From NCBI GenBank assembly GCA_030433215.1, contig JAUIMC010000015.1, positions 1-64,000 on the forward strand: a DNA stretch of 64,000 nt, read 5' to 3'. This document shows, in pieces, positions 14,133 through 18,664 of the stretch. How positions within the stretch are numbered: the first letter of the stretch is position 1; every line of letters starts with the position of its first letter. The notes beneath the pieces were generated by a model. That model ran no database searches. It had not been told where the DNA came from and worked only from the letters and a program-made list of their open reading frames with translations. The stretch comes from Alphaproteobacteria bacterium (GTDB lineage Bacteria > Pseudomonadota > Alphaproteobacteria > Caulobacterales > Parvularculaceae). Both the position numbers and the translations under genes were made by a program.

Positions 14133-16286
14133 ATGTTCGACGAAAAGGAAGCCGGCGCGGACAAGCGCTCCAATTTCGACCGCCAGCTCGGCGCCTCGAT
14201 TGAGGCGGCGGCGGACTGGATCGCCGAGCGTCAGAAACCGGAAGGCTATTGGGTCGGCCGGCTTGAATCCAACGCCTGCATGGAGGCGCAGTGGATTCTG
14301 GCGCTCTGGTTCATGGGGCTTGAGGACCATCACCTTCGCCCGCGCCTTGCGCAATCCTTGCGCGAGACCCAGCGCGAAGACGGCTCCTGGCAGATTTATC
14401 ACGAAGCTCCCGCCGGCGACATCAACACGACGGTTGAGGCCTATGCGGCGCTGCGCTCCATGGGCGACGCCAAGGATGCGCCGCACATGGTTCGCGCGCG
14501 CGAATGGATCATGTCGAAGGGCGGGCTTAAAAACATCCGCGTCTTCACGCGCTACTGGCTGGCGCTGATTGGCGAGTGGCCGTGGACGAAGACGCCGAAC
14601 CTGCCGCCGGAAGTGATCTTCTTTCCCAACTGGTTTGTCTTTTCGATCTACAATTTCGCGCAATGGGCGCGCGCGACCCTGATGCCCATCGCGGTTCTGT
14701 CTGCGCGCCGGCCGTCGCGGCCCCTGCCTGCGGAACGCCGCCTCGACGAGCTCTTTCCTGAAGGTCGCGAGAAATACGATTATGCCTACCCTGAAAAGCC
14801 GGGTTCCGGGTTCGCGGAAGCTTTCTTCCTGACCGCCGACAAGGTGCTGCACGCACTGCAGGGCTTCGGCGACACGGCGGGCATCGGTCTTGCGCGCAAG
14901 GGCGCGGTTTCCCGCGCGCTTGAATGGATCATCAAGCACCAGGACGCCGACGGCGTCTGGGGCGGCATCCAGCCGCCATGGATCTATTCCCTGATGGCGC
15001 TTTATAATGAAGGCTATGCGCACGATCACTCAGTCGTCGCCAAGGGCCTCGCGGCGCTCGACGATCCGCGCTGGCGCGTCGATGTAGGCGAGGCGACCTG
15101 GATACAGGCGTCGACGAGCCCCGTCTGGGACACCGAACTGACGCTGCTGGCGCTTGAAGACTGCGATCTCAATGAACGCCATGATGCGGAAGTCGAAAAG
15201 GCGCTCGACTGGCTCCTTTCCCAGCAGGTCTTGCGCAAAGGCGACTGGAGCGTCAAATGTCCGAAGCTCGAACCCGGCGGCTGGGCCTTCGAATATAAGA
15301 ATTACTTCTATCCCGATACGGACGATACGGCGGTGGCGCTGATCGCGCTCGCGCCGTTCCGCAACAAGAAAAACTTTTCCTCCCCCGTTTACGGGGGAGG
15401 TGTCGCCGAAGGCGACGGAGGGGGCGGGTTGCAAGAACCCCCTCAGTCCGCTTCGCGGACAGCTCCCCCGCAAGCAGGGGAGCAGAGATCTGCACGCGTC
15501 GAAGAGGCGATCGAGAAGGGCGTCGAATGGCTCATCGGCATGCAGTGCAAAAACGGCGGCTGGGGCGCCTTCGACAAGGACAATGACAAGCAGATCCTGA
15601 CCAAGATTCCCTTCTGCGATTTCGGTGAAGCGCTCGATCCGCCCTCGGTCGACGTCACCGCGCATATCATCGAAGCCTTCGGCAAGCTCGGCATCCGCAA
15701 GGACCATCCGGTCATGGTGCGCGCGCTCGATTATATCCGCGCCGAGCAGGAGGCGGACGGAGCCTGGTTCGGACGCTGGGGCGTCAATTATGTCTATGGC
15801 ACGGGCGCGGTCCTGCCGGCGCTCGAGGCCATCGGCGAGGACATGACGCAAGGTTACATCCGCAAGGCCTCGGACTGGCTGATCCTGCATCAGAACGAGG
15901 ATGGCGGCTGGGGCGAATCTTGCGCCTCCTATATGGACGTCAAACAGATGGGCCGGGGCAAATCAACCGCCTCACAGACCGCCTGGGCGCTGATGGGCCT
16001 CGCCGCCGTGGGCCGCGCTGAGGATGAGCGCTCCATTGCCGACGGCGTCCAGTTCCTGATCGAGCGCCAGAAAGACGGAACCTGGGAAGAGCCGGAATAT
16101 ACCGGCACAGGGTTCCCCGGCTACGGCGTCGGCCAGCACATCAAGCTCACCGACCCGCAATTGCAGGACCGGCTAAAGCAGGGTCCCGAACTCTCCCGCG
16201 CCTTCATGATCAACTACAATCTCTACCGCCATTATTTCCCTATGATGGCGATGGGACGGGTGCGGAAGATGATGGCGGGCGCTTAA
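14133..16286 (+). CDS. shc: Squalene-hopene cyclase with an in-frame repeat insertion
   Basis: Membrane-associated triterpene cyclase that converts squalene to hopene, the first committed step to hopanoids. Repeated QW motifs are present (QREDGSWQIY, HQDADGVWGG, CKNGGWGAFDKDN, HQNEDGGWGE), and the catalytic DXDD acid is D395-T-D-D398. The 717 residues exceed the family norm (about 630-680) because residues ~414-454, between the DXDD strand and the next helix (RVEEAIEKGVEWLIGMQ), are encoded by a palindromic intergenic-type repeat. The frame is kept, so the protein could remain functional if this surface loop tolerates the Gly/Pro-rich insert. The 3' end overlaps the convergent serine hydrolase gene by four bases. 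Confidence 0.95.
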   Translation: MFDEKEAGADKRSNFDRQLGASIEAAADWIAERQKPEGYWVGRLESNACMEAQWILALWFMGLEDHHLRPRLAQSLRETQREDGSWQIYHEAPAGDINTTVEAYAALRSMGDAKDAPHMVRAREWIMSKGGLKNIRVFTRYWLALIGEWPWTKTPNLPPEVIFFPNWFVFSIYNFAQWARATLMPIAVLSARRPSRPLPAERRLDELFPEGREKYDYAYPEKPGSGFAEAFFLTADKVLHALQGFGDTAGIGLARKGAVSRALEWIIKHQDADGVWGGIQPPWIYSLMALYNEGYAHDHSVVAKGLAALDDPRWRVDVGEATWIQASTSPVWDTELTLLALEDCDLNERHDAEVEKALDWLLSQQVLRKGDWSVKCPKLEPGGWAFEYKNYFYPDTDDTAVALIALAPFRNKKNFSSPVYGGGVAEGDGGGGLQEPPQSASRTAPPQAGEQRSARVEEAIEKGVEWLIGMQCKNGGWGAFDKDNDKQILTKIPFCDFGEALDPPSVDVTAHIIEAFGKLGIRKDHPVMVRALDYIRAEQEADGAWFGRWGVNYVYGTGAVLPALEAIGEDMTQGYIRKASDWLILHQNEDGGWGESCASYMDVKQMGRGKSTASQTAWALMGLAAVGRAEDERSIADGVQFLIERQKDGTWEEPEYTGTGFPGYGVGQHIKLTDPQLQDRLKQGPELSRAFMINYNLYRHYFPMMAMGRVRKMMAGA
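15380..15483. repeat. Multi-hairpin palindromic repeat inserted in shc
   Basis: Five consecutive perfect hairpins lie within 104 bases. Their stems are 15380-15388/15391-15399 (CTCCCCCGT), 15402-15407/15411-15416 (GTCGCC), 15418-15424/15438-15444 (GAGGGGG), 15446-15451/15455-15460 (GTCCGC) and 15462-15468/15477-15483 (GCTCCCC). In addition the left arm (about 15393-15424) and right arm (about 15438-15469) form a long imperfect inverted repeat around CGGGTTGCAAGAA. This organisation is typical of extragenic palindromic elements seen between genes in many alphaproteobacteria, but here it lies inside a coding region and is read through in frame. Confidence 0.85.
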
Positions 16287-17539: not shown

Positions 17540-18664
17540 CTAGCCGCACCCGCCATCCATTTCCGAAATCCAGCCGGAAATCAACGCCACGCCTTCCTCA
17601 TGCGCCACGGCGCGGCCGAGCTCGGGCATCATGGCGCCGGGATCGGTGGTGTCCATGCGAAAGACGGTGATGGAAAGATCGGGCCTTCCCGGCACGATGT
17701 CATAGGGCCGCCCGCCCGTGCCGCGGCCCGCTGCGATGGGCGCTTTGCAATTGCCCATGGCGGGGCCGGAGGCGTCCGGTTCGAGATTAAGCCCGGATGT
17801 GTCCGCGGGCCCGTCCGGGTTGTGGCAATGGCTGCAATTGGCGTCGAGATAGGCCCGCGCGCGTGCGTCGAGGGGTTCGGCTTCATCGCTCCAGTCGACA
17901 TTGCGCGGCGCCGGCGTTTCGATCTCGCCGGTGAGCAATCCTTTCGCCAGCCAGTGGTCGAGTTGGTTGAAGCCGGGCGCGAAGCTTGAAGCTTTGTTCA
18001 GATGCCGCGCCTTGGGGCCGATGGGCTTGATCTCTTTCGTCGTCGCATTGTCGGCGTGACATCCAACGCATTGATTGGCGTTGGGGACGAGATAAGCGAA
18101 GGGCTCCATGCGCCCGCCGCCTGCATCGTTCTCGCGGATCAGCGTCAGGCGCTTGACGTCGCCGGTGCGTTTTAAAACCGCGTCCGTCTGGTCCTCGTTC
18201 CAGACATAAGGAAGGGCGTCCCAGCCTGCTTCGCGATGCACGAGCACGCGGGTTTCGATAAGGCGCAGATGGTCGAGCGCCATTTCACCGTCATAGAGCT
18301 TGCGTTCTTTGCCGGTCAGGACGTCGCCCGTCCATTCGTTATCCGGAACCGGATAATAGAAGGTCTTGGTGATGACCGTGCCCACAGGAAAATCGAAAGC
18401 GTCGTTCGGATCATAGACCGCCGGCGCGCCATCCGGCGTCCAGACAGTTCTCAGCTTCAGCGCGTAATCGGAAAAGAGCGGCGTTGCGAGGTCGTAGGGC
18501 GTGACGCCGTCGCTGAGGCGCAGCGCGCCGTCTTTCGCCGCGATCATGCCCCAGTCGCTCAAATGTTCCGGGTTTTCGTCCGCGTGATAGGTCGGCGCCG
18601 GGCCTTGCGAACAGGCGGCGAGCGAAAGGCCGAACAGCGCAACAGCGGCGAGACGAGACATCAT
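17540..18664 (-). CDS. Diheme c-type cytochrome lipoprotein (SO2930/HNE_0200 family)
   Basis: A 374-residue exported lipoprotein (lipobox LSLAAC, Cys18) with two heme-binding CxxCH motifs: CVGCH at 199-203 and CSHCH at 277-281. The N-terminal part (LSDWGMIAAKDGALRLSDGVTPYDLATPLFSDYALKLRTVW) is diagnostic of an uncharacterised family named after Hyphomonas neptunium HNE_0200 and Shewanella SO2930 (TIGR03806). It should carry two c-type hemes on the outer face of the inner membrane or on the outer membrane. Its ATGA overlap with the upstream beta-helix gene implies tightly coupled expression and a joint function. The reaction is unknown. Confidence 0.88.
   Translation of the reverse strand: MMSRLAAVALFGLSLAACSQGPAPTYHADENPEHLSDWGMIAAKDGALRLSDGVTPYDLATPLFSDYALKLRTVWTPDGAPAVYDPNDAFDFPVGTVITKTFYYPVPDNEWTGDVLTGKERKLYDGEMALDHLRLIETRVLVHREAGWDALPYVWNEDQTDAVLKRTGDVKRLTLIRENDAGGGRMEPFAYLVPNANQCVGCHADNATTKEIKPIGPKARHLNKASSFAPGFNQLDHWLAKGLLTGEIETPAPRNVDWSDEAEPLDARARAYLDANCSHCHNPDGPADTSGLNLEPDASGPAMGNCKAPIAAGRGTGGRPYDIVPGRPDLSITVFRMDTTDPGAMMPELGRAVAHEEGVALISGWISEMDGGCG

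Follow-up and report, generated by a model that had tools for sequence, protein, structure and literature searches.

The RPEs of Rickettsia are palindromes of 105–146 bp that occupy intergenic sites as well as in-frame positions within conserved protein genes, and ten families have been named in R. conorii, according to two reviews (PMC2229807, PMC10969869). In-frame REPs of the GTAG and CGTC types were reported by Di Nocera et al. (2013) in many bacteria, with uvrA, UvrD/Rep helicase, dnaE2 and tRNA synthetase genes among the hosts, so that protein-coding insertions of this kind are already known; the authors add that recB of two Xanthomonas species carries different REPs at about the same site (PMC3733652). 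REPs are defined there as units of 20–40 bp with an unpaired tag, and the CGTC types, occurring mostly in Alphaproteobacteria, have a terminal tag beside an 8–9 bp stem. Two further systems involve palindromes of other kinds. The CIR repeats of Caulobacter, also Alphaproteobacteria, are palindromic, about 110 bp long, contain GANTC and stops in all frames, and are described as intergenic only (PMC2229807). In nematomorph mitochondria, both arms of coding palindromes encode conserved residues of the host protein (PMC6649704).

Here we describe a two-armed palindromic element located in frame within shc, the squalene--hopene cyclase gene, of a Parvularculaceae genome; "window" denotes the whole 64-kb stretch of DNA that was analysed. 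The element falls within the RPE size criterion of about 100–150 bp, its 45-nt arms (15380–15424 and 15438–15482) are 80% complementary, and like the RPEs it has several copies, both intergenic and in frame within conserved genes whose orthologues exist without the insert. The first-pass annotation had likened it to RPEs, which palindrome size, dispersal and in-frame placement bear out, but RPEs are not the sole precedent, given the REPs of free-living bacteria (PMC3733652). The element appears to work in the same way as an RPE, a likeness that carries no claim of membership, and its host belongs to another family of Alphaproteobacteria; here a single element family occupies an identical junction of one gene across several species, and some loops are shared by families that are unrelated to each other. 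Compared with REPs, the repeat unit is about 46 nt long with two hairpins, no GTAG occurs in the shc copy, and the CGTC on the reverse strand of the A arm has its GTC paired in the second stem. The REP paper presents one gene with REPs at the same site, whereas several such genes are found here (PMC3733652). The element resembles CIR in length and in being a palindromic repeat of Alphaproteobacteria, but it lacks GANTC and is located inside a gene. It shares with the nematomorph palindromes the long inverted repeats in coding sequence, but it represents extra sequence, absent from most orthologues.

Results

A palindromic element captured in the shc frame

A profile search assigned the shc frame to squalene--hopene cyclase (TIGR01507, 684.5 bits against a cut-off of 431), and the frame remains open across the element (Table 1). 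The local hairpin CCTCCCCCGT/ACGGGGGAGG is perfect over 10 bp; the others are GTCGCC/GGCGAC, GTCCGC/GCGGAC, a central GGGGG/CCCCC, and GCTCCCC/GGGGAGC, which has one mismatch once extended to 10 bp. The RNA fold of the element reached −71.4 kcal/mol, compared with −47.9 ± 4.3 kcal/mol for 200 dinucleotide shuffles, none of which equalled it (z −5.4). The open 717-aa frame, the complementary arms and the strong fold uphold the first-pass annotation in its claim that a palindromic repeat had been captured in frame inside shc; the palindrome itself stands, and its length is corrected from 104 bases to 105 nt with the boundaries listed in Table 1. The insertion was placed rightly, too, at residues 414–454 with about 40 residues added, although the extra residues span about 412–454 and the net gain is 36 aa. 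A DNA search and a word scan of the 64-kb window revealed no copy beyond the one in shc.

Table 1. Positions of shc, its catalytic motif and the parts of the inserted element.
Feature	Coordinates	Strand	Description
shc	14133..16286	+	Squalene--hopene cyclase, 717 aa; frame open across the element
DTDD	15315..15326	+	Residues 395–398; intact, upstream of the insertion
Element	15379..15483	+	Two-armed palindromic element, 105 nt, in frame within shc; SSPVYGGGVAEGDGGGGLQEPPQSASRTAPPQAGEQ
A arm	15379..15424	+	10-bp hairpin + 6-bp hairpin + GGAGGGGG
Inter-arm spacer	15425..15437	+	13 nt
B arm	15438..15483	+	CCCCCTCAG...CAGCTCCCCC...GGGGAGC; variant of the A arm

Five of the six frames of the shc copy are stop-free, compared with 3.2 of six expected from base composition, and over the 14 two-arm copies tested the stop-free frames amounted to 53 of 84. 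The DTDD motif, which we take to be the DXDD motif of squalene cyclases, is intact and lies upstream of the insertion as had been noted; the AlphaFold2 model puts it at the end of a coil and the start of a helix, not in the strand proposed earlier. In the same model residues 417–449 have pLDDT below 50 and lie between helices 396–409 and 448–469, and such very low confidence is what would be expected if the inserted peptide is, as is probable, a disordered loop. At the same position the Aac SHC has only residues 389–395. The dN/dS ratio between the window and Marinicaulis flavus was 0.068 before the insert and 0.061 after it, values which indicate strong purifying selection on both parts of the gene. 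Among 33 aligned SHC rows, the element is the sole minority insertion (at most 8 rows) of at least 10 residues.

Copies in this genome and in the family

The mobile repeat supposed by the first-pass annotation should have other genomic copies, and a DNA search together with a pattern scan located such copies in the window genome (3.75 Mb, 37 contigs). A 121-nt query gave 59 matches at E<=10 and about 20 distinct places with E <0.001, with 40 of the 55 first-look candidates scored. A strict A-arm pattern was counted at 15 places here and in none of 239 other genomes drawn from the class, none of them Parvularculaceae. DNA searches within the family, tried on six genomes, returned 17 to 80 matches per genome. 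For three of the 15 copies in the window genome, those in shc, aceF (the linker of pyruvate dehydrogenase E2) and mnmG, the reading frame continues through the element and both flanks show coding signal. Unlike the RAYT-mobilised REPs, the element resides in a genome (G000) without a match to the Y1/RAYT transposase profile PF01797, which leaves its presumed mobility without a known motor and counts against it; this profile matched in nine of the 36 genomes searched, eight of them above the cut-off.

The B-arm pattern occurs twice in the window genome, in both cases within genes (shc and aceF). A codon-usage score trained on this genus, which is not a gene finder, placed 11 of 14 B-arm copies from nine genomes of the genus in genes, against 1 of 13 A-only copies from the window genome only (Fisher p 0.0003). 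A preference of the B arm for genes is not counted as a finding, since the genome sets are unmatched and in G032 no more than 10 of the 31 B arms fall in genes; plain tolerance leaves the excess unaccounted for, and we regard it as an unexplained lead.

Two variant forms were seen in passing. In genome G076 a short variant of the palindrome, in most cases CCCCTCAGCCTRCCGGCAGCTCCCC, was matched 81 times, and no clear gene reads through this variant at loci L184, L192, L196 and L199. At loci L174, L190, L179, L323 and L324 a longer inner hairpin of the CCGGATAAATCCGG or CCGGGCGCGAGCCCGG type takes the place of the second hairpin of an arm, and these copies resemble one repeat nested within another.

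Filled and empty shc sites among relatives

SHC was found in 33 of 60 genomes, and loci were obtained for 30, of which 29 were assessable. Five of these 29 (window, G009, G010, G020 and G032) carry the element, and the other 24 have a short loop, which reads FRNDPKWKDKGIE in the nearest relative. Among these 24 is M. flavus (Parvularculaceae), the nearest named SHC relative, whose loop is the short canonical one. The residues in question are therefore absent from most relatives, as the first-pass annotation had foreseen, and an unrelated loop of similar length, the case that would have spoken against its reading, was not seen in shc. The codon junction, strand and frame are identical in all carriers. 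The four fully seen inserts keep the frame without stops, as do both seen ends of the fifth, that of G009, whose contigs break inside the element; the G010 copy (L034) is half-length, with the first half only, and in frame. The 79 named SHC loci, among which L129 ends at the site and L136 is uncovered there in the alignment, added no further carrier when RBC008, OFTM183 and NAT21 were taken as G032, G020 and G009. Inspection by eye made out no target-site duplication at the shc junctions. At the thirtieth locus, that of G018 (OFTM310; L050 / L129), the contig stops only a few bases from the site, and the repeat may be present there too.

An SHC tree was built from 33 rows with the insert columns removed, in which L039 was left out and G009 was represented by the 5′ part only. 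Presence and absence on this tree took five changes (5–95% range 5–5 over 200 bootstrap trees), and the starred branches alone force five, a count that does not separate gain from loss. Every shc carrier groups with empty relatives; the pairing of G009 with the empty L062 has a support of 88/87, below the star level. The AU test rejected the pairs window and G009 (p 0.016), L066 and L034 (p 0.0008), and window and L065 (p 0.00003).

It was considered whether the insertion arose only once or twice, the patchiness being due to loss together with exchange of short allele tracts between lineages, a reading that we find rather unlikely. The shc copies of the window and G009 are identical at 93 of 95 positions compared with 84–86% for the flanking coding DNA, a contrast not expected if members of a varied family had simply inserted independently, and the same altered residues, NK(K/R)N, flank both copies. 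The copies of G010 and G020 share the unusual variant GGCAGYACC despite the empty L077, sister to G020 in the tree, and the common junction and frame of all carriers point the same way. On the other hand, G032 comes from a different genus, its sister L080 is empty, and the identity of its SHC coding DNA to that of the window is no higher than 74–77%. Moreover, stepwise identities around the shc site show no visible recombination tract (upstream side only for G009), and other palindrome families have reached these loops in uvrA and glyS, where separate insertions would be needed. At least three origins, for window/G009, G010/G020 and G032, are likely, and the remaining pattern may be explained by loss or short-tract exchange.

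Other genes hit, and loops shared by unrelated palindromes

The first-pass annotation was right about shc, but the recurrence at this site and the many other genes hit had gone unseen. In-frame copies of the same element family were found in aceF (window genome, G023, which is M. flavus, G013 and G032; in G080 a B-arm match falls within the aceF match), pdhB (G032), mnmG (window genome and G023), a PcrA/UvrD-type helicase gene (G021), and glyS and uvrA of the genomes given below. G032 has further in-frame hosts in leuS, a second E2 gene, dnaE2, a 1709-aa frame and an unclassified 623-aa frame, and in total 10 of its 31 B-arm copies are in frame within genes (two of the 31 places were skipped, their surroundings being equal to another's). 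The matches of PcrA, leuS, dnaE2 and the second E2 were below the curated cut-off, at least some of them being frames cut by locus ends, and the ortholog comparison of empty sites was confined to hosts other than leuS, dnaE2, the second E2, the helicase, mnmG and the 1709-aa and 623-aa frames. Between species, the copies inside shc and aceF are closer to each other than the sequences that flank them (for aceF, 111 of 113 positions identical versus about 87%).

The loops of uvrA and glyS were each read at 30 loci. In uvrA, the A/B peptide was present in four (G016, G017, G032 and, up to the contig end, G080), a second kind of insert in four (G009, G007, G029, G031), short loops resembling the second kind in two (G061, G006), a third kind in one (G021), and another stem in one (G082); 16 had a short loop and two were unread. 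The site is filled in G016 and empty in G024, though the two are 97% and 93% identical on its two sides. In glyS, the A/B peptide was present in two (G009, G020), the second kind in four (G007, G021, G075, G026), the third kind in one (G084), and a possible remnant in one (G067); two had long non-palindromic loops (G012, G063; z near 0), 19 a short loop, and one ended at the site. Both loops are short in the window genome.

At the DNA level the sequence is ATCCTTCGAGACG...TCATCCTGAGGAGC for the second kind and CCCCTCTCCC...GGGAGAGGGG for the third, and both are further palindromic repeat families, unrelated to the A/B element. When 17 inserts of the three kinds, short remnants included, were folded against 100 shuffles each, 13 had z <= −4.4; weaker values were obtained for L202 (−3.0), L231 (−3.4), and the remnants L237 (−1.9) and L224 (0.3). 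The separate G082 stem (L209) had −2.5. The comparison of second- and third-kind DNA and folds was made without L208, L216 and L217. At E <=0.001 the second kind gave 31 matches in G009 and 30 in G021, and the third 22 in G021 and 23 in G084, these being matches and not copies; neither matched the window genome at this threshold. Stops are present in the uvrA match of G082 and in one of the two glyS matches of G026.

Several neighbouring observations were made. At locus L158 of G032, a gene for an SO2930-type diheme cytochrome adjoining shc carries an in-frame A/B element, so that two neighbouring genes are hit; its homologue in the window, as read from the sequences, lies at 17540-18664 (-). 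The mnmG genes at L014 (window genome, C36) and L163 (M. flavus) hold two palindromes each, which seem to stand in opposite order and orientation in the two genomes, and beside them stands TGTTCCACGTGGAACA, presumably a parS-like sequence. In G021 (L294, G021:C6), the second palindromic family occupies the aceF linker and a place by the lipoyl-domain match of the neighbouring gene, places which carry the A/B element in other genomes.

Discussion

The results are very probably explained by a dispersed, non-autonomous, REP/MITE-like palindrome that inserted in frame in a loop of SHC and is translated and tolerated; the best reading is that of an RPE-like protein-coding palindrome, repeatedly acquired by permissive loops. 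The repeat, presumably mobile, would enter shc in frame at the loop between two helices, and translation would add about 36 residues, probably disordered, that the enzyme tolerates at near-neutral cost. The element would suit life in a reading frame because it is GC-rich, several of its six frames are stop-free, and the inter-helix loop can accommodate the peptide. Gene-breaking copies would be removed by selection and those in permissive loops would persist, perhaps decaying later in frame, as in the relative with half an element. Within the family the shc loop has been occupied repeatedly, and comparable loops of other core proteins carry the same or unrelated palindromes. Since different repeats are found in the same loops, we argue that the loop, not the target sequence, decides survival.

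It is improbable that the element is kept for use, whether through a hairpin that slows ribosomes between helices, a stabilised shc message, or a Gly/Pro peptide that alters the enzyme. The strong fold, and the greater likeness of the shc and aceF elements than of their flanks between species, would agree with such a role, but most relatives live without the element, one carrier has lost half of it, and other loops accommodate unrelated palindromes just as well. Some yeast mitochondria skip hairpin insertions, and ribosome bypass or splicing could similarly leave the stretch untranslated; this is very hard to reconcile with shc inserts that stay in frame and stop-free wherever they are seen, with uvrA and glyS inserts that are largely stop-free apart from the two matches with stops, and with the lack of any Rfam family in the window at the gathering threshold, hence of any known intron. 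Least probable of all is misassembly, for although contigs break at the repeat in other genomes (in G009 and perhaps in G018), the flanks here make up the two parts of a single gene in a single frame, and the same insertion is present in genomes that were assembled separately.

Within the RPE-like reading, what is new, as far as the open-access literature searched goes, is the family of elements, its occurrence in this lineage and in shc, and the finding that certain loops are used again and again, both by this palindrome and by unrelated ones. The debate whether palindromic repeats make new protein or pass as annotation has so far been argued mostly from Rickettsia. In Parvularculaceae, a given insert in a housekeeping enzyme whose structure or family is known can be present in one genome and absent from a near relative, and M. 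flavus, a named strain, carries such inserts in aceF and mnmG; with these pairs and a named carrier, the effect of an insert, including that on an assayable hopanoid enzyme, and the movement of the element become directly testable. We tentatively suggest, as a bolder idea that is more doubtful than not, that a small number of core-protein loops (in shc, uvrA, glyS, and the lipoyl-linker regions of aceF and pdhB) are shared landing pads which unrelated palindrome families enter, leave and re-enter in frame, the mosaic A/B subtype possibly being specialised for genic life and its copies homogenised between species. If this is true, mobile palindromes would steadily supply proteins with new segments in bacteria other than Rickettsia.
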